DNA from: Faecalibacter rhinopitheci
GTDB taxonomy: Bacteria > Bacteroidota > Bacteroidia > Flavobacteriales > Weeksellaceae
Assembly (NCBI RefSeq): GCF_015234135.1
Contig: NZ_JADGIK010000009.1
Coordinates: forward strand, 1 to 62,737
Direction: 5' to 3'
DNA: 62,737 nt
A model generated the notes under the pieces. It did not search any database. It was not told the DNA's origin and was given only the letters and a program-made list of their open reading frames with translations. The stretch's first letter is position 1, and each line of letters begins with the position of its first letter. Positions 7,794 to 62,122 of this stretch are shown one piece after another. A program made the position numbers and the translations under genes.

Positions 7794-7815
7794 TTTTGTT
7801 TATGTTTTATGTGAT

Positions 7816-8220
7816 ACGTTGTAGGTTATACGTTTTTAATTTTACTGATAAGATTAATTAACATAGCCTTGATTTGTTCAATTTGATTGTTTAAATTCTC
7901 AAAATCTTCATTAGTTAAATAATTCAAATCTTTAGCTAGGAATAATAAGTATGATGTTTCGTTAGCAGATCCTAAACTGATATTTAAGAATTGTGTTAAT
8001 TCTTTTGAAGAATATCTTCCACAACCTTCTGCAATATTAGTAGGAATTGAGCTTGAAGCTCTTCTAATCTGAGATGTTAATCCAAACATTTCCTCTTTTG
8101 GAAAAGTAGAAGTTTTTTGATAAACCATTAATGTTAATTCGTGGCCTAATTCCCAAACTTTTAATTTCTTATAATCTTGCATATTGAAACGTATAACTTA
8201 TTACTTATAACGTACAACTT
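7816..8220 (-). mobile_element. candidate IVS-like insertion carrying a four-helix-bundle gene (argC-argD spacer)
   Basis: The left flank contains GGTTATACGT (7824-7833) and the right flank ACGTATAACTT (8189-8199); 9 of 10 bases match as an inverted repeat. A second pair, TTGTA at about 7819-7823 against TACAA at about 8213-8217, lies outside the first. The whole unit is about 405 bp and holds one gene in the orientation of the surrounding operon. The element status is an inference from this architecture and from the similar unit at 57519-57916. Confidence 0.45.
7826..8182 (-). CDS. four-helix-bundle protein (23S rRNA IVS-protein family)
   Basis: This 118-aa protein has the family signature FGLTSQIRRASSSIPTNIAEG (about residues 33-53) followed by GR.SSKELTQFLNISLGSANE. 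Such proteins are encoded in 23S rRNA intervening sequences of several bacteria and as stand-alone genes in many Bacteroidota, and they form oligomeric helical rings. Their cellular role is not established. The gene interrupts the argC-argD junction, where neighbouring genes are otherwise closely packed. Its relative at 57561-57893 interrupts the fad operon. Confidence 0.85.
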   Translation of the reverse strand: MQDYKKLKVWELGHELTLMVYQKTSTFPKEEMFGLTSQIRRASSSIPTNIAEGCGRYSSKELTQFLNISLGSANETSYLLFLAKDLNYLTNEDFENLNNQIEQIKAMLINLISKIKNV

Positions 8221-8221
8221 A

Positions 8222-9208
8222 TTAAAACGCTACCGTCTTTAAATTAAGTCCTAAATTCTCTTCCCATCCGAAGATGATGTTCATATTTTGTACCGCTTGT
8301 CCCGATGCACCTTTAGTTAGGTTATCGATGATCGAAGTGATTAATAAAACGTCGTCTTGTTTTTGGATGTGTAATAAACATTTGTTGGTATTTACCACTT
8401 GTTTTAAAGCAATTGGCGCATCCGAAATAAATGTGTAAGGCTCGTCTTTGTAATATTCTTTATACAATTGAATTGCCTCTTCTTCTGATAAATCAGATTT
8501 TAAATAAACACCGGCTAAAATTCCACGAGCAAAATCTCCACGCATGGGTAAGAAATACACTTTGTTATTAAAACCAGGTTCTAATAAGTTTAACGTTTGG
8601 TAAATTTCACCTTCGTGTTGATGCTTAAATTCTTTGTAGAAAGATACGTTGTTGTTTCTCCAGCTGAAGTGAGTAGAAGCGGATAACGATTGACCAGCAC
8701 CAGTTGAACCAGTAACGGCATTGATGTGAATATCTGAATGAATGGCTTTACTTGCAGCTAATGGTAATAAGGCTAATTGGATGGCAGTCGCAAAACATCC
8801 AGGATTTGCAATATTTTTCGCTTCTAAGATGGCAGAACGATTAAATTCTGGTAATCCGTAAACGAATTCTCTTTCTTCAAATTTCTTATCAGCATCTAAA
8901 CGGAAATCGTTACTTAAATCAATTACAACGGTATGCTCTGCATATTTGTTGTTCGTTAAGAATTCTGCAGATTTTCCGTGACCTAAACATAAGAAAACAA
9001 CATCTGCATTTTCATCAATCTTATCCGAAAATACGATATCAGTTTCACCATATAAGTCATCGTGTACTTGAGCAACTGGATTTCCAGCATTAGAAGTGCT
9101 GTATACAGAAGAAATATTTAAGTTTGGATGATGAATCAATATGCGTAATAGTTCTCCGGCAGTGTAACCAGCTCCACCTACAATGCTAACGTTAATTTTG
9201 TGTGTCAT
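8222..9208 (-). CDS. argC: N-acetyl-gamma-glutamyl-phosphate reductase
   Basis: ArgC is an NADPH-dependent reductase for the third arginine step. The Rossmann start (NVSIVGGAGYTAGELLRIL) and the catalytic cysteine motif NPGCFATAIQLALLPL are intact, and the length (328 aa) is normal. It lies between argG and the inserted four-helix-bundle gene. Confidence 0.97.
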   Translation of the reverse strand: MTHKINVSIVGGAGYTAGELLRILIHHPNLNISSVYSTSNAGNPVAQVHDDLYGETDIVFSDKIDENADVVFLCLGHGKSAEFLTNNKYAEHTVVIDLSNDFRLDADKKFEEREFVYGLPEFNRSAILEAKNIANPGCFATAIQLALLPLAASKAIHSDIHINAVTGSTGAGQSLSASTHFSWRNNNVSFYKEFKHQHEGEIYQTLNLLEPGFNNKVYFLPMRGDFARGILAGVYLKSDLSEEEAIQLYKEYYKDEPYTFISDAPIALKQVVNTNKCLLHIQKQDDVLLITSIIDNLTKGASGQAVQNMNIIFGWEENLGLNLKTVAF

Positions 9209-54673: not shown

Positions 54674-55117
54674 ATGTTAAGAGATAGTTTAACGATAGAT
54701 TACTTATTAAGGTCAACTTGGTTGGCAGTACAAAAAATGTACAACGAACAAGCAAGTGAATATGAATCGACAATGGTATATGCATTTACATTGTTATCAA
54801 TTGACCCTAAGACAGGAACTCCAAGTACATCTTTAGGACCAAAAATGGGAATTGAACCCACTAGTTTATCCCGAACACTAAAAAATTTAGAAGAACGGAA
54901 GTTTATTGTTCGAAAACCAAATCCTGAAGATGGGAGAAGCGTTTTGATTACTTTGACAAATGAAGGATTAAAAATGAGAGACACATCAAAACGTTTCGTA
55001 TTACAATTTAACAACGCAATTAGTCAAAATATTGAACCAGAAAAACTAAAAATATTCTTTGAGGTGATGATTAAGATTAACCAATTAATATCAGACCGTA
55101 AAATATTCAAAAAATAA
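54674..55117 (+). CDS. MarR-family transcriptional regulator of the fad operon
   Basis: The 147-aa winged-helix protein has MGIEPTSLSRTLKNLEERKFIVRKPNPEDGR as its recognition helix and wing. It starts the operon and ends 2 nt before the fadN-like gene, so it probably senses acyl-CoA or fatty acid and represses beta-oxidation. Confidence 0.9.
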   Translation: MLRDSLTIDYLLRSTWLAVQKMYNEQASEYESTMVYAFTLLSIDPKTGTPSTSLGPKMGIEPTSLSRTLKNLEERKFIVRKPNPEDGRSVLITLTNEGLKMRDTSKRFVLQFNNAISQNIEPEKLKIFFEVMIKINQLISDRKIFKK

Positions 55118-55119
55118 TT

Positions 55120-57519
55120 ATGAGAAGACACATTAAACATGTTACTGTATTAGGATCAGGAGTTATGGGCTCAGGTATTGCATGTCATTTTGCAAATATC
55201 GGAGTAGAAGTCTTGATGTTAGATATGGTGCCTCGCGAGCTTACACCACAAGAGCAAGCGAAAGGGTTGACTTTAGAGAGCAAAGTTGTTCGCAATAGAA
55301 CCGCTCAATCTCATCTAGATGCAGCACTTAAAAGCAATCCTTCCCCAATTTACGATAAAGCATTTGCTTCTCGTATAACTGTCGGTAATTTTGATGATGA
55401 TTTAGAAAAAATCAAAAACTCAGATTGGGTAATCGAAGTAATTATCGAGCGTTTAGACATTAAACAAGCGATGTTCGAAAAGGTCGATGCCTTACGCAAA
55501 CCAGGAACATTAGTAACGTCGAATACATCAGGGATTCCAATTCACATGATGTCGGAAGGAAGATCAGAAGATTTCCAAAAACATTTCTGCGGAACGCACT
55601 TCTTCAATCCTCCTCGTTACTTAAAATTATTTGAAGTAATTCCAGGTCCAAAAACAGATCAAGCAGTGATCGATTTCTGTATGAACTATGCTGGTTTATT
55701 CTTAGGCAAAACAGCGGTTTTATGTAAAGATACACCTGGATTTATCGGAAATAGAGTAGGGGTTTATTCGATGGCAAAAGTAATGGAACTAACACAAGAG
55801 TTAGGGCTTACGATCGAAGAAGCAGATACGTTAACAGGTTCTATTTTAGGTCGTCCTAAAACAGGAACGTTTAAATTAGGAGATTTAGTTGGTTTAGATA
55901 CGGCGTATAACGTAACAAAAGGGTTACAACAAAATACAACGGGAGACCAAATGATTCAAGATTTAAAAGATTCTAAATTCTTAGACTTTTTAATCGAGAA
56001 TAAATTCTTAGGAGATAAAACAAAAAAAGGTTTCTATTATAAAGAAGTTGACAAAGAAGGAAACACGAATCGTTTCGCTTTAGACTTAGACACATTAGAA
56101 TACCGTCCAATGGAACGTGCAAAAGTTGGTGCAGTTGAAGCAGCAAAACAAGCAGGTTCTACCAAAAATAAATTAGCAGCTTTATTAAAAGCTGATGGAA
56201 AACACGGAGATTTAATTCGTAAACATTTCGCATCATTATTTGCTTATGTTTCTCAACGTGTTCCAGAAATTACAGATGTATTTTATCCAATCGATGACGC
56301 AATTCGTACAGGGTATGCTTGGAAATATGGTCCTTTCGAAACGTGGGATTATGTTGGTTTAGCAAAAGGAATCGAATTAGTCGAGTCTGAAGGTTACCAA
56401 GTAGCAGAATGGGTTAAAGAATTAGCGGCGACTGGTGCTGATGCTTTCTATAAAGTTGAAGGTGGTAAAAAATTATACTTCAACCAAAACTCAAAACAAT
56501 TCGAAGCAATTCCAGGTCAAGATGTATTTATCATTTTAGATAACATCCGTAAGACAAATGAAATTTGGTCGAACAAAGAGGCTTCTGTTCAAGATTTAGG
56601 AGATGGAATCATCAACTTAGAGTTCCGTTCAAAAATGAATTCTTTAGGTGGTGGAGTTTTACAAGGAATCAACAAAGCCATCGAGTTAGCAGAAAAAGAC
56701 CACAGAGGTTTAGTGATCGGAAATCAAGCAGATAATTTCTCAGTTGGAGCAAATTTAGCCATGATCATGATGATGGCTGCCGAGCAAGATTGGTGGGATT
56801 TAAATATGGCGATCAAAATGTTCCAAGATACGATGATGCGTGTACGTTACTCGGATATTCCAGTAGTCGTTGCGCCTCACGGAATGACTTTAGGTGGTGG
56901 ATGTGAAATGACGATGCATGCAGATAAAGTAGTTGCAGCTGCTGAAACATACATCGGATTAGTGGAAGTTGGTGTTGGTTTGATCCCTGGTGGAGGTGGG
57001 TCGAAAGAGTTTGCTTTACGTGCAGCTAAAAATGTTTTAGCCGATGACGTGAAAACAAATCACTTGAGAGATGCGTTCATGAACATCGCAATGGCAAAAG
57101 TGGCAACTTCTGCTTATGAAGCGAAAAACATGGGAATTATTCGTGATCAAGACATTATCGTAGTCGATAAAGATCGTCAAATCGCAGAAGCGAAGAAACA
57201 TGCAATCATCATGGCTGAAGCTGGATATACACGTCCAATCAAGCAAAAAGTGAAAGTATTAGGACGCGAAGCACAAGGGATGTTCTACGTCGGAACAGAT
57301 CAATTAGTAGCAGGACGTTACGCTTCTGATCACGATCGTTTAATCGCGAATAAATTAGGATATGTAATGACAGGTGGAAACTTATCTGAAGCAACAGAAG
57401 TATCAGAACAATACTTACTAGACTTAGAAAGAGAAGTGTTCTTATCATTATGTGGTGAACGAAAAACGTTAGAGCGTATCCAACACATGTTAAAAACAGG
57501 TAAACCATTACGTAACTAG
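55120..57519 (+). CDS. fadN: 3-hydroxyacyl-CoA dehydrogenase / enoyl-CoA hydratase (FadN-type)
   Basis: This bifunctional beta-oxidation enzyme of 799 aa has the dehydrogenase module first (HVTVLGSGVMGSGIACHFAN, NAD-binding; THFFNPPRYLKLFEVIPG). The crotonase module is last (NFSVGANLAMI, MTLGGGCEMTMHADK, GVGLIPGGGGSKE). This order matches Bacillus FadN rather than E. coli FadB. It is followed, after an inserted four-helix-bundle gene, by thiolase. Confidence 0.93.
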   Translation: MRRHIKHVTVLGSGVMGSGIACHFANIGVEVLMLDMVPRELTPQEQAKGLTLESKVVRNRTAQSHLDAALKSNPSPIYDKAFASRITVGNFDDDLEKIKNSDWVIEVIIERLDIKQAMFEKVDALRKPGTLVTSNTSGIPIHMMSEGRSEDFQKHFCGTHFFNPPRYLKLFEVIPGPKTDQAVIDFCMNYAGLFLGKTAVLCKDTPGFIGNRVGVYSMAKVMELTQELGLTIEEADTLTGSILGRPKTGTFKLGDLVGLDTAYNVTKGLQQNTTGDQMIQDLKDSKFLDFLIENKFLGDKTKKGFYYKEVDKEGNTNRFALDLDTLEYRPMERAKVGAVEAAKQAGSTKNKLAALLKADGKHGDLIRKHFASLFAYVSQRVPEITDVFYPIDDAIRTGYAWKYGPFETWDYVGLAKGIELVESEGYQVAEWVKELAATGADAFYKVEGGKKLYFNQNSKQFEAIPGQDVFIILDNIRKTNEIWSNKEASVQDLGDGIINLEFRSKMNSLGGGVLQGINKAIELAEKDHRGLVIGNQADNFSVGANLAMIMMMAAEQDWWDLNMAIKMFQDTMMRVRYSDIPVVVAPHGMTLGGGCEMTMHADKVVAAAETYIGLVEVGVGLIPGGGGSKEFALRAAKNVLADDVKTNHLRDAFMNIAMAKVATSAYEAKNMGIIRDQDIIVVDKDRQIAEAKKHAIIMAEAGYTRPIKQKVKVLGREAQGMFYVGTDQLVAGRYASDHDRLIANKLGYVMTGGNLSEATEVSEQYLLDLEREVFLSLCGERKTLERIQHMLKTGKPLRN

Positions 57520-57916
57520 TATTGATGGATTGTATTAAGTAAAATGTAAAAAGTAGTAAGATGAATAACTTTAAAGATTTACTTGTTTGGCAGAAATCGA
57601 TTGATTTTACAATTAAAATTTATGCTGAATTGAAATCTTTTCCTAAAGAAGAAATTTATTCTCTTACTTCTCAAATTAAAAGAAGTTTAATTTCAATTCC
57701 TTCAAATATAGCTGAAGGTGCAGGAAGAGGAAGTAAGAAAGAATTTAATCGATTCTTATCAATTGCTTTAGCTTCAAGTTTTGAGTTAGAAACTCAATTG
57801 ATAATCGCATTAAGATTAAATTATTTAAGAAATGACGATAGTTTGAAAGAGCTTACTCATATTCAAAATATGATTGCAAAACTAAAGAAATGACTTAATA
57901 CATAATACATCAATAC
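57519..57916 (+). mobile_element. candidate IVS-like insertion carrying a four-helix-bundle gene (fadN-fadA spacer)
   Basis: The left flank (57519-57540) read as its complement begins ACTTAATACA and ends CATCAATAC. The right flank (57893-57916) begins and ends with the same two blocks, differing only in a 3- versus 5-nt centre. The enclosed unit is about 398 bp. The left repeat starts at the last base of the fadN stop codon. The transcript could form a long terminal stem around the gene, as in 23S rRNA IVS elements. Confidence 0.55.
57561..57893 (+). CDS. four-helix-bundle protein (23S rRNA IVS-protein family)
   Basis: This 110-aa relative of the protein at 7826-8182 has IYSLTSQIKRSLISIPSNIAEG and AGRGSKKEFNRFLSIALASSFE, the core family motif. 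Sequence identity to the first copy is moderate, so the two are not a recent duplication. It sits between fadN and fadA in operon orientation. Function unknown. Confidence 0.87.
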   Translation: MNNFKDLLVWQKSIDFTIKIYAELKSFPKEEIYSLTSQIKRSLISIPSNIAEGAGRGSKKEFNRFLSIALASSFELETQLIIALRLNYLRNDDSLKELTHIQNMIAKLKK

Positions 57917-57934
57917 ATAATACAACTAAAAAAA

Positions 57935-59116
57935 ATGAAACAAGCATATATTGTTACAGGATATAGAACAGCAGTAGGTAAAGCACCAAAAGGAACTTTA
58001 CGTTTTACGCGTCCAGACGAATTAGCGGCGACTGTTCTAAAACGTTTAATGGAGGATTATCCAACATTAGATCCAGCACGTATCGACGATTTAATCGTAG
58101 GATGTGCAATGCCAGAAGCAGAACAAGGGTTAAATATGGCCCGTTTAATCTCGTTAATGGGATTAAGTACAGATAAAGTTCCAGGAGTAACCGTGAACCG
58201 TTACTGTGCATCAGGTTCTGAAGCCATTGCATTAGCAGCGGCTAAAATTAGAACTGGAATGGCAGAATGTATCATCGCGGGTGGTGCAGAGTCGATGTCA
58301 TACATCCCAATGGGAGGTTACAAGCCAATTCCGGAAACGGATATGGCTAAAGATAACCCAAGTTACTACTGGGGAATGGGATTAACAGCTGAAGCGGTTG
58401 CCAACGAATTCAAGGTTTCTCGTGAGGAACAAGATCAGTTTGCATTTAATTCGCATCAAAAAGCGTTAAAAGCATTAGCAGAAGGAAAATTCGATGCTCA
58501 AATCGTTCCGGTTGAGGTAGAATACAATTTCTTAGATGCCAACGAAAAAATCCAAACAAAAAAGACCATCTTCAAACAAGACGAAGGACCACGTGTAGAT
58601 ACGTCATTAGAAGGTTTAGCAAAATTACGTCCAGTATTCGCAAATGGAGGTTCGGTTACAGCAGGTAACTCATCTCAAATGTCGGACGGTGCTGCTTTCG
58701 TAATGGTGATGTCTGAAGACATGGTCAAAGAATTAGGATTAGAACCAGTTGCTCGTTTAGTTTCGTATGCTACTGTAGGTTTAGCGCCACGTATAATGGG
58801 AATGGGGCCCTTATATGCGATTCCAAAAGCCTTAGAGCAAGCAGGATTACAATTACAAGATATCGATTTGTTCGAGTTAAATGAGGCATTCGCTTCTCAA
58901 TCGGTTGCAATTATGCGCGAATTAGAGATGGATGCATCAAAAGTAAATGTGAACGGTGGTGCCATCGCATTAGGTCACCCACTAGGATGTTCAGGTACAA
59001 AATTAACGGTACAATTATTACACGAAATGGAAGCGCGTAAAGCAAAATACGGCATGGTGACGATGTGTGTCGGAACTGGTCAAGGTGCTGCTTCTGTTTT
59101 TGAATATTTAAAATAA
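57935..59116 (+). CDS. fadA: acetyl-CoA acyltransferase (3-ketoacyl-CoA thiolase)
   Basis: The 393-aa thiolase has the nucleophile in VNRYCASGSEAIALA, NGGAIALGHPLGCSGTK with the second cysteine and histidine, and LNEAFASQSVAI. It releases acetyl-CoA in the last beta-oxidation step. It follows the inserted element by 18 nt. Confidence 0.95.
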   Translation: MKQAYIVTGYRTAVGKAPKGTLRFTRPDELAATVLKRLMEDYPTLDPARIDDLIVGCAMPEAEQGLNMARLISLMGLSTDKVPGVTVNRYCASGSEAIALAAAKIRTGMAECIIAGGAESMSYIPMGGYKPIPETDMAKDNPSYYWGMGLTAEAVANEFKVSREEQDQFAFNSHQKALKALAEGKFDAQIVPVEVEYNFLDANEKIQTKKTIFKQDEGPRVDTSLEGLAKLRPVFANGGSVTAGNSSQMSDGAAFVMVMSEDMVKELGLEPVARLVSYATVGLAPRIMGMGPLYAIPKALEQAGLQLQDIDLFELNEAFASQSVAIMRELEMDASKVNVNGGAIALGHPLGCSGTKLTVQLLHEMEARKAKYGMVTMCVGTGQGAASVFEYLK

Positions 59117-59127
59117 AATAATGCGGT

Positions 59128-59166
59128 AGTGAGACCGATGAGCTTCAAAACCGATTTGGTCTCACT
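59128..59166 (+). promoter_or_regulatory. strong hairpin between fadA and the acyl-CoA dehydrogenase
   Basis: AGTGAGACC pairs perfectly with GGTCTCACT (9 bp) around a 21-nt loop, then TTTTAAAAAT. It may be a partial terminator or an RNA-processing or stability element between operon genes. Confidence 0.5.
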
Positions 59167-59205
59167 TTTAAAAATATTTTCAATAACCATAAAAAAACTA
59201 TTATA

Positions 59206-61008
59206 ATGTCTACAAAATCAAACAGATTAATCGGAGGGGAGTACTTAATTAAAGATGCTGCTTACAACGATATTTTTACATATGAAGATTTATCAGAAGA
59301 ACAACAAATGATTTTGCAATCAGCAAAAGAGTTTATTGATAAAGAAGTTGTTCCAAACAAACACAGAATCGAAAAGAAAGATTATGCGTTAATTGAGGAG
59401 TTAATGCGTAAAATTGGTGAATTAGGTTTATTAGGAATTTCAGTTCCTGAAGAATATGGTGGTTTAGGAATGGGATTCTCAACAACAATGTTAGTTTGTG
59501 ATTACATTTCTGGAGCTACAGGGTCTTTAGCTACTGCTTTTGGTGCACATACAGGAATTGGAACAATGCCAATTTTATTATACGGTACAGAAGAGCAAAA
59601 ACAAAAATATTTACCACAATTAGCTTCAGGAGAAGTTTTCGCTTCTTACTGTTTAACTGAACCAGAAGCGGGATCTGATGCTAATTCAGGTAAAACAAAA
59701 GCAAGATTATCTGAAGATGGTAAAGAATACATCATCACAGGTCAAAAAATGTGGATTACAAATGCAGGTTTCGCTGAAATCTTTATTGTATTTGCACGTA
59801 TCGATGACGATAAAAATATTACAGGTTTTATTGTTGAAAAATCTAAAGCGGGTGAAGGCTTTGCATTAGGAGAAGAAGAAGATAAATTAGGTATTGTTTC
59901 TTCATCAACACGTCAAGTCTTCTTAAATGAAGTTCGTGTTCCAGTAGAGAATATGTTAGGTGAAAGAGATGGAGGATTCAAAATCGCAATGAATGCCTTA
60001 AACGTAGGTCGTATCAAATTAGGTGCTGCTTGTTTAGATGCGCAACGTCGTGTGTTGGACAACTCTTTACAATATGCTTCTGAAAGAAAACAATTTGGTG
60101 TTTCAATCAATACATTTGGAGCAATTAAAGAAAAATTAGCAGATATGGCTGTTGCTACTTTTACTTCTGAAGCTGGTGCTTACCGTGCTGCGAAAGATGT
60201 AGAAGATGCAATTGCAGATAATATTGCGAAAGGTATGTCGCATACGGATGCAGAATTAAAAGGTATCGAAGAATATGCAATTGAAGCTTCTATCTTAAAA
60301 GTTTGGATATCTGAAGCAGCTCAAGTAGCTTCTGATCAAGGAATCCAAATTTACGGAGGAATGGGATACTCAAAAGAGATGCCAATGGAAGGTGCTTGGA
60401 GAGATGCTCGTATTTCGAGAATCTATGAAGGTACAAACGAAATCAATACATTATTATGTGTATCGATGTTAGTAAAGCGTGCCTTCAAAGGAAAATTAGA
60501 TTTAATGACGCCAGCAATGGGAATTGCTAATGAATTAATGTCTATTCCGTCATTCGATATTCCAGATTATTCTGAATTATTCGCACAAGAAAAAGAAATC
60601 ATCGCGAACTTAAAGAAAGTGTTCTTTATGGTTGCTGGTGCAGCTTTACAAAAATTTGGGGCGAACTTAGAACAACACCAACAGTTAATTATGGCAGCTT
60701 CTCATATTATGCAAGAAATCTATATGGTAGAATCTGCCATGTTACGTGCTGAGAAATTAGCGAATAAGAAAGGAGCTGATGCGGCTAAAAATGCAGAAAA
60801 ATTAGTTCAATTACAATTATTCAAATCAGTTGAGATCATCAAAACAGAGGCAACATGTGGAATTATCTCGTTCACAGAAGGAGATGAGCAACGTATGATG
60901 TTATCTGGATTAAGAAGATTTACACGTTACAACGAATATCCAAACGTTGTGAACTTAAAAACAGAAATTGCAGATTTATTAATTGCAGAAAATAAGTATA
61001 CGTTCTAA
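59206..61008 (+). CDS. acyl-CoA dehydrogenase (FadE-like, with C-terminal extension)
   Basis: The 600-aa flavoprotein has the acyl-CoA dehydrogenase signatures YCLTEPEAGSDANSGKT, GQKMWITNAGFAEIF and QIYGGMGYSKEMPMEGAWRDARI. IYEGTNEINTLL carries the region of the catalytic glutamate. About 170 residues follow the core, a C-terminal helical extension also seen in Bacillus FadE. It carries out the first beta-oxidation step. Confidence 0.93.
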   Translation: MSTKSNRLIGGEYLIKDAAYNDIFTYEDLSEEQQMILQSAKEFIDKEVVPNKHRIEKKDYALIEELMRKIGELGLLGISVPEEYGGLGMGFSTTMLVCDYISGATGSLATAFGAHTGIGTMPILLYGTEEQKQKYLPQLASGEVFASYCLTEPEAGSDANSGKTKARLSEDGKEYIITGQKMWITNAGFAEIFIVFARIDDDKNITGFIVEKSKAGEGFALGEEEDKLGIVSSSTRQVFLNEVRVPVENMLGERDGGFKIAMNALNVGRIKLGAACLDAQRRVLDNSLQYASERKQFGVSINTFGAIKEKLADMAVATFTSEAGAYRAAKDVEDAIADNIAKGMSHTDAELKGIEEYAIEASILKVWISEAAQVASDQGIQIYGGMGYSKEMPMEGAWRDARISRIYEGTNEINTLLCVSMLVKRAFKGKLDLMTPAMGIANELMSIPSFDIPDYSELFAQEKEIIANLKKVFFMVAGAALQKFGANLEQHQQLIMAASHIMQEIYMVESAMLRAEKLANKKGADAAKNAEKLVQLQLFKSVEIIKTEATCGIISFTEGDEQRMMLSGLRRFTRYNEYPNVVNLKTEIADLLIAENKYTF

Positions 61009-61453: not shown

Positions 61454-62122
61454 ATGAAAAGAATTGTGGTATTAACTGGAGCTGGAATTAGTGCAGAAAG
61501 TGGTATTTCTACATTTAGAGATGCGAATGGTTTATGGGAAAATCATGATATTATGGAGGTGGCTTCAATACAAGGTTGGAATGTAAACCCAGTTTTAGTA
61601 TTGGATTTTTATAATTTACGCCGTGCTCAGTTAAAAGAAGTATACCCAAATGCAGCACATTATTTTTTAGCTGAATTGGAAAAAAAATTTAAGATAACTA
61701 TAATTACCCAAAATGTAGATGATTTTCATGAGAGAGCAGGTTCTTCAAGAATCATTCATTTACATGGAGAATTAAATAAAGTGAGGAGTATAGCTAATGA
61801 GAATTTGATATATGATTGGATGGGTGATTTAAAATTAGGAGATTTAGCAGAGGATGGAATGCAACTCCGTCCACATATTGTATGGTTCGGCTAAGAAGTT
61901 TCTATGATGTATTCTGCTATAAATGAGGTGAAAGATGCGGATATATTATTAATTATCGGTACTTCTTTACAAGTTTATCCGGCAGCATCATTATTAGATC
62001 ATATAGATTATGAAACTAAAGTTATTTGTATTGATCCAAACGATTTGCCTATAAATTCAAATATATACCATATTAAAAAGAATGCTACAGAAGGTATAGT
62101 GGACTTAGAAAATTATTTATGA
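61454..62122 (+). pseudogene. cobB: NAD-dependent protein deacylase (sirtuin), interrupted by a nonsense codon
   Basis: The N-terminal part has LTGAGISAESGISTFRDANG, ITQNVDDFHERAGS and HLHGEL (catalytic His). The no-zinc insert and LRPHIVWFG follow. The next codon is TAA (61892-61894) where GAA is expected (family reads WFGEEV). After it the same frame continues with EVSMMYSAI, LIIGTSLQVYPAASLL and ends normally at 62122. One G-to-T change therefore splits an otherwise intact gene of about 222 codons. Confidence 0.85.

Follow-up and report, generated by a model that had tools for sequence, protein, structure and literature searches.

Why should a gene for a small four-helix-bundle (4HB) protein separate fadN from fadA in Faecalibacter rhinopitheci? 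We addressed this question in contig NZ_JADGIK010000009.1, all 62,737 nt of which are referred to here as the window. The genes of the locus all lie on the + strand, in the order marR-like gene, fadN, 4HB gene, fadA and acyl-CoA dehydrogenase gene. The upstream host gene (55120..57519, +) encodes a fadN-like 3-hydroxyacyl-CoA dehydrogenase/enoyl-CoA hydratase (Pfam 3HCDH_N, 1.1e-42; ECH_1, 6.4e-15), which we take to be fadN, following an original prediction made from the sequence, and the downstream host gene (57935..59116, +) a fadA-like thiolase (Thiolase_N, 2.9e-67; Thiolase_C, 4.3e-50). The original prediction had also recognized a 4HB gene between them, and this is borne out by the 110-aa product (57561..57893, +), a member of the S23p / 23S_rRNA_IVP family (PF05635, 5e-36; TIGR02436, 9.1e-35) that exceeds the curated cut-offs (123.6 bits against 33.8 for PF05635; 119.2 against 24 for TIGR02436) and has relatives in the PDB (2gsc, XCC0516, 1.5e-21; 2rld, 2.2e-6). 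The unit to which it belongs is about 400 nt long and fills a junction of a few nucleotides in the sense of the operon. We consider it probable that this feature is a cassette of intervening-sequence (IVS) type, in which a PF05635 (S23p, Avd-like) open reading frame (ORF) is set between two heptamer arrays, the right one being the left one in reverse complement, and that its transcript would be processed.

The anatomy of the ends carries much of this reading. The left arm (57519..57555, +) is a G-strand heptamer array beginning at the final base of the fadN TAG stop, and its positions 57519-57540 are complementary to the right arm (57893..57925, +), a C-strand array and the reverse complement of the left. 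Two complementary blocks around the 4HB gene, the left one starting at the fadN stop codon, had been predicted, and both lie exactly where they were placed: GTATTGATG (57519-57527) pairs with CATCAATAC (57908-57916) within inverted repeat I6 (57519-57531/57904-57916), and TGTATTAAGT (57531-57540) pairs with ACTTAATACA (57893-57902) as inverted repeat I11. The two pairs are collinear and make up a single inverted repeat (57519-57540 versus 57893-57916) with 21 matches, one mismatch and a 2-nt gap over 24 columns; its Smith-Waterman score of 32 was equalled by none of 1000 dinucleotide shuffles. Both ends are degenerate period-7 arrays (Tandem Repeats Finder [TRF], 57537-57555 and 57896-57924), with the G-strand upstream of the gene and its reverse complement, the C-strand, downstream, and the right array extends to approximately 57925, past the complementary block. 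The period-7 build of the ends and the reach of the right array go beyond the original prediction, as does a second PF05635 unit of the same make in the window. This unit occupies the argC-argD junction (7794-8221, minus strand; the argC and argD names are presumed), with its gene at 7826..8182, its left (upstream) heptamer arm at 8183..8221 (TRF 8188-8222, period 7) and its right (downstream) heptamer arm at 7794..7828.

Four PF05635 loci are present in this genome (the fad unit, L001, L002 and L004). When the 150-nt flanks of these loci were tested for inverted complementarity, the fad unit and L004 stood far above the shuffles (0/1000 each), and L002 was weak (131/1000 shuffles as good), its start codon having been placed 54 nt too far inside; with the right start it scores 20. 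The arrays themselves keep company with these genes. Across 424 kb of this genome there are seven period-7 arrays, four of them (at C6 and at argC-argD) with a PF05635 gene no more than 250 bp away and a fifth inside a gene next door to such a gene, compared with one of eight period-8 arrays near a PF05635 gene. At L001 (genome G000, C6:11528-14845), GGGATTA/GGGACTA-type heptamers flank the PF05635 gene, and a similar heptamer run lies inside the adjacent glycosyltransferase-like ORF, whose reading frame is open throughout.

The same anatomy recurs well beyond this genome. We surveyed 135 distinct PF05635 loci with 120-nt flanks, comprising 4 of our own, 22 congeneric, 8 from viral contigs, 74 from a collection of named genomes and 27 from the same phylum. 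These were drawn from 183 loci, of which 30 came from a fadA search and were kept for site comparison; among the other 153, 14 lacked a usable ORF and one had a short flank, and the 138 that remained included 135 distinct loci. The named sample consists of the best 80 of at least 567 candidates ranked by likeness to the fad-unit protein and its allies, which inflates the share of fad sites, and the loci sampled by phylum, by class and from the candidate phylum had the highest scores among the matches listed. Upstream flanks paired with their own downstream flanks at a mean score of 29.1, as against 16.0 with the downstream flanks of other loci. An inverted score of at least 26 was reached by 80 of the 135 loci (own 1/4, genus 12/22, viral 4/8, named 51/74, phylum 12/27), compared with 3.0% of cross-locus pairs, 15/135 loci in direct orientation and 8/117 control ORFs from the same loci. 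Outside the Bacteroidota, 30 loci yielded 25, in 13 genomes, after five were dropped, and 18 of these reached 26; 12 of the 25 were already in the main set, and among the 13 new loci the score was reached by ten, and by two in direct orientation. A further set came from the candidate phylum of a Patescibacteria genome picked without regard to repeats, where 14 of 19 usable loci reached 26 (from 30 loci, ten were lost at ORF finding and one for a short flank). Complementary ends at other copies, the comparison recommended by the original prediction, are thus far above chance in the main survey and in both additional sets. Chance complementarity in AT-rich DNA was ruled out by the cross-locus pairing and by GC-rich loci of the same anatomy.

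Geometry and polarity are common to the loci and the heptamer sequence is specific to each. A strong flank period was seen at lag 7 in 39 upstream and 40 downstream flanks of the 135 loci, at lag 8 in 14 and 15, at lag 9 in two and two, and at lag 6 in one and none; no other lag between 3 and 12 was strong, and shuffled flanks gave none at any lag. The left arm was G-rich at 111 of 124 loci, C-rich at nine and tied at four. Orientation is likewise biased, both neighbours being co-directional with the 4HB gene at 114/128 loci (107/130 under a different ORF rule), compared with 38/89 other ORFs of the same loci and 159/339 ORFs in this genome.

Comparison of 14 genomes of the genus (G000 to G013) revealed presence and absence of these units at three junctions. 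The fadN-fadA site was filled in 13 genomes, with 415-469 nt from the fadN stop to the fadA ATG, and was empty in G013, where the gap is 3 nt. At argC-argD, nine sites were filled (one with a frameshifted ORF) and three were empty (gaps of 17, 21 and 30 nt; G001, G009 and G013); of the remaining two, G012 carries 56 nt that may be a scar and G003 another ORF. At hisC-hisB, eight sites were filled and four were empty (G001, G002, G005 and G009, with gaps of -2 to 2 nt); G007 has 142 nt in which heptamer-like inverted arms enclose no ORF (L203), a unit resembling a non-autonomous derivative, and in G004 the gap measures 84 nt and contains a palindromic repeat of a different kind (L205). Empty junctions, which the original prediction had proposed as a check at fadN-fadA, therefore exist at this site and at two others. 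The G003 ORF (L190 319-1449) encodes 376 aa with repeated KWGY/KYGL-type motifs where congeners carry the PF05635 unit, and may be another cargo; we rejected the claim of a different cargo between heptamer arms at this site, where the flanks are heptamer-like and the arms too weak to carry it. In the his operon region of G000 (C23:240716-241540), a period-8 array (241473-241540) has an inverted partner at 240716 (score 41), and the pair encloses no PF05635 gene.

Filled fad sites have not all inherited the same gene; distinct lineages of the unit have been swapped between near-identical flanks. Between G000 and G008, fadN up to its stop is 95-98% identical and the first 150 bp of fadA 99%, and the parts of the unit are 50-61% identical; in the comparison of G012 with G007, identity is 99-100% over the final 300 bp of fadN and 96% over the first 150 bp of fadA, and 46-65% for the parts of the unit. 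On a tree of 129 proteins the fad copies of the genus fall into at least three, and probably four, separate places, all inside one larger clade: a first group of G000, G010-G011, G003, G007 and G004, a second of G008, G012, G005 and G002, and a third of G001 and G006, with the G009 copy near the second group at an open fork. The fad label changes 12 times on this tree, and at least six of these changes are forced by well-supported branches, on a tree with few columns, an unsettled bootstrap and many open forks. For G001 and G006, divergence at silent sites (dS) is lower for the 4HB gene (0.107) than for fadA (0.526), as expected of a unit that has passed between lineages.

These comparisons bear on the plainest alternative, namely that the 4HB gene is a small, ordinary member of the fad operon, kept by vertical inheritance for its service to the pathway, beside short repeats that are incidental. 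The protein is under constraint: the ratio of nonsynonymous divergence to dS (dN/dS) at the fad site is 0.06-0.12 in all nine pairs, a rough estimate since dS exceeds 1 in four of them, and because of this ratio the 4HB protein seems to be made and used. An ordinary fad gene would fit such constraint, the occupancy of 13 of 14 congeners, the clustering of the fad label across the protein tree (12 changes, as against 28.9 for shuffled labels) and the recurrence of fad junctions within the Bacteroidota, where fad genes adjoin 19 of the 75 named loci in a sample ranked by likeness to the fad-unit protein. It fits poorly with the exchange of distinct lineages between near-identical flanks, the empty site in G013, the relatives at other operon junctions and the matched inverted heptamers around PF05635 genes in many phyla, and we therefore regard it as very improbable.

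Related units do occur elsewhere. A 4HB protein 86% identical to the fad copy of Flavobacterium fluvii is encoded between a marR-like gene and fadN, another that is 74% identical to a Pedobacter fad copy lies at an sdhA-sdhB-like junction, and a 60% relative of a fad-site copy lies at a carA-carB-like junction; the sdh, car and marR names are our presumptive readings of these sequences. Within the Flavobacterium fluvii family (L076, L078 and L080) the right arms are similar, scoring 38-42 where the background reaches 28 at its 95% point and 80 at its 99% point, and the left arms are similar in one pair only (38; the others 17 and 21). In other families with copies at different junctions the arms are mostly not shared.

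Movement of this kind could be that of a DNA transposable element, the arms being its terminal inverted repeats and the enzyme either a transposase supplied in trans or the 4HB protein. The paired inverted ends, the presence and absence of units, the arms without an ORF in G007, the possible scar in G012 and the similar right arms of related ORFs at different sites in L076, L078 and L080 are all consistent with such an element. Insertion sequences and miniature inverted-repeat transposable elements (MITEs), however, have a terminal sequence common to the family, and here the arms are specific to the locus (cross-locus 16.0 versus own 29.1), hence the loci show no recognition site in common. 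Inspection by eye revealed no target duplication, the orientation bias towards sense is strong, and we know of no transposase fold for a 110-aa four-helix bundle. We judge a transposable element unlikely.

At the RNA level, folding of 57500-57940 gave a z-score of -3.98 relative to shuffles, with both blocks paired in the minimum-energy and centroid structures. An Rfam scan of 55000-61000 found no family above its gathering score, and an intrinsic terminator was set aside on geometry alone, the arms being some 350 nt apart, with no terminator scan run. Selection for pairing of the sense RNA would be expected to leave more G:U than A:C mismatches in the arms. This expectation was not borne out, with 137 G:U versus 187 A:C at 124 of 147 loci under a looser threshold and 74 versus 98 at 106 of 147 under a stricter one, and selection through wobble pairs is thus not supported. 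Nor do the fad-site arms of a genome pair better with each other (28.0) than with same-type arms taken from a different genome (28.8; other types 17.2), and therefore no ongoing compensation is seen at this site.

These results fit a neutral origin of the complementarity, in which 7-nt slippage arrays were made symmetric by inverted template switching and have no role in RNA. A clean solo array of (TTCTAAG)n in G000 (C23:324451-324610, L228), from which the nearest PF05635 gene on the contig is 81 kb distant, points the same way, as does the proposal of polymerase slippage for heptamers, reported as the commonest repeat category in most genomes surveyed (PMC4679880). Against a purely mutational product stand the proximity of four of the seven period-7 arrays to PF05635 genes and the G bias of the left arm, which slippage alone leaves unexplained. 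We see this as the most serious of the competing explanations, and still as rather unlikely.

The cassette that we favour can be compared with a well-described IVS. The 23S IVS of Coxiella burnetii has 428 nt, an S23p ORF in sense and complementary ends forming a 28-bp stem; it is cleaved by RNase III in vitro, and carries two or three tandem heptamers plus one degenerate copy directly before the S23p start codon (PMC4990558). It sits in helix 45 of 23S rRNA, is sporadic and thought to be horizontally acquired, and its ORF is thought by the authors of that paper to be decaying. The fad unit resembles it in size (13 filled gaps of 415-469 nt), in its sense ORF of the S23p family, in its complementary ends and in the heptamers before its ATG, and differs in having a protein-coding operon as host and an ORF under constraint. 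The link to 23S IVSs drawn by the original prediction is, given the Coxiella heptamers before the S23p ATG, stronger than was proposed there. The proposed IVS-type element in an operon's orientation stands as to orientation and anatomy; its arms show no G:U excess. It lies between fadN and fadA, outside any rRNA gene, so that with stem-capable complementary ends and sporadic presence beside intact empty sites (fad, arg and his) it is IVS-like, not a 23S IVS. Insertions in the 16S and 23S rRNA of candidate-phylum bacteria have also been reported to contain PF05635 ORFs (PMC11270868). The simplest reading is a single cassette class that has so far been noticed where it interrupts rRNA.

Heptamer repeats have been described separately. 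G-rich degenerate heptamers, mostly intergenic and often between co-directional genes, are known from Xanthomonas (GGGAATC) and Nostoc (GGGGA(C/T)T); two Xanthomonas genomes contain 70 and 75 convergent inverted pairs of their repeat, and Nostoc has few inverted pairs (PMC4692102). The fad unit shares their degenerate 7-nt units; theirs were studied as G-quadruplex repeats. TAACTGA repeats of Beggiatoaceae, cyanobacteria and some Bacteroidetes form intergenic arrays before start codons (PMC4679880); the fad arrays are likewise intergenic heptamer arrays, whereas TAACTGA is one fixed heptamer and nearly always direct. The terms S23, intervening, four helix and four-helix do not occur in the main text of either paper. 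PF05635 and Avd of diversity-generating retroelements are treated as homologous four-helix-bundle proteins (PMC10053308), yet the fad-unit protein scores 20.6 bits against an Avd equivalog cut-off of 80 and its immediate neighbours are fad genes. A search of the open-access literature found, among the papers listed, nothing tying PF05635 to heptamer arms except the Coxiella IVS paper; the pattern is real and general, and has no match in the open-access literature searched.

Several observations weigh against the cassette that we propose. As well as the missing G:U excess and compensation described above, 55 of the 135 loci fall below the cut-off for inverted arms, and L001 has arrays of the same strand (G-strand) on both sides, not inverted, for which 986/1000 shuffles were as good; with 120-nt flanks, one of our own four loci reaches 26. 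Control ORFs are not free of arrays, with a strong lag-7 flank in 7 and 11 of 117, and the fad-unit arrays are below the length cut-off of the 424-kb array count. The predicted fold pairs few left-arm bases with the trimmed right arm in three of 13 units (G002 4/39, G001 9/43, G006 9/43), partly because the right array begins within the last codons of the ORF and was trimmed. By eye, no target-site duplication is visible between filled and empty junctions, among which there is no fresh insertion. The 4HB tree clusters by site, and units have therefore to a large extent stayed at their sites by vertical inheritance. A BLAST search with the 23S gene of this genome found no 23S-embedded unit among the non-Bacteroidota and candidate-phylum PF05635 loci, and the heptamer link to true IVSs comes from one published case, Coxiella, on the 5' side only (PMC4990558). 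Because of the absent G:U excess and compensation, the loci below the cut-off and the same-strand arrays of L001, the arms look like ends that were symmetric when the unit was made and have drifted afterwards, and RNA processing at the fad site is something that we infer.

How such a unit would work can be outlined as follows. The cassette would be transcribed together with the fad operon, its arms could close a long stem that RNase III may open, and cutting would free the cassette RNA and leave the fadN and fadA messages whole. The 4HB protein, of which a solved Xanthomonas relative is a pentamer (PMC4990558), may aid the upkeep or movement of the unit, and the 23S rRNA IVSs that bear an S23p ORF would be cassettes of this class whose insertion site was rRNA. 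Insertion or exchange at the DNA level might proceed, as a guess, by short-tract recombination or by copying begun in the arms. More broadly, and with somewhat less than even confidence, we propose that the PF05635 genes, taken together, are carried by mobile cassettes forming one class across the bacteria, whose defining feature is the geometry of their ends and not a conserved end sequence (inverted locus-specific heptamer arrays, G-strand first, sense at operon junctions). An Avd-like pentamer would act on repeat-armed RNA or DNA in movement, and S23p-bearing 23S IVSs, the paired heptamers of Xanthomonas and perhaps those of cyanobacteria would be its residents and relics.

Two further features of the window were noted. 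A reading frame at 61454-62122, presumably sirtuin-like, is split in two by an in-frame stop, and the contig end (1-482) holds 2.4 tandem copies of a 197-bp unit that resembles 5S rRNA.

Our findings suggest caution for annotators who take such genes for phage parts; one is listed in a phage table, in an interval from guanylate kinase to nicotinate nucleotide adenylyltransferase (PMC5524665). 23S rRNA IVP is also named in the legend of a figure on association scores for clustered regularly interspaced short palindromic repeats (CRISPR; PMC10910872), and we speculate that heptamer arrays misread as CRISPR arrays lie behind this listing. Three separate puzzles meet in these units, namely the origin and mobility of 23S IVSs, the function of the S23p family and the heptamer repeats of bacteria. 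As the units reside in protein-coding operons of culturable, engineerable bacteria, old proposals, such as a role of the IVS ORF in mobility (cited in the Discussion of PMC4990558), become directly testable. Finally, cassettes of this kind would explain the 'four helix bundle protein' genes that break up housekeeping operons such as fad, arg, his and others.

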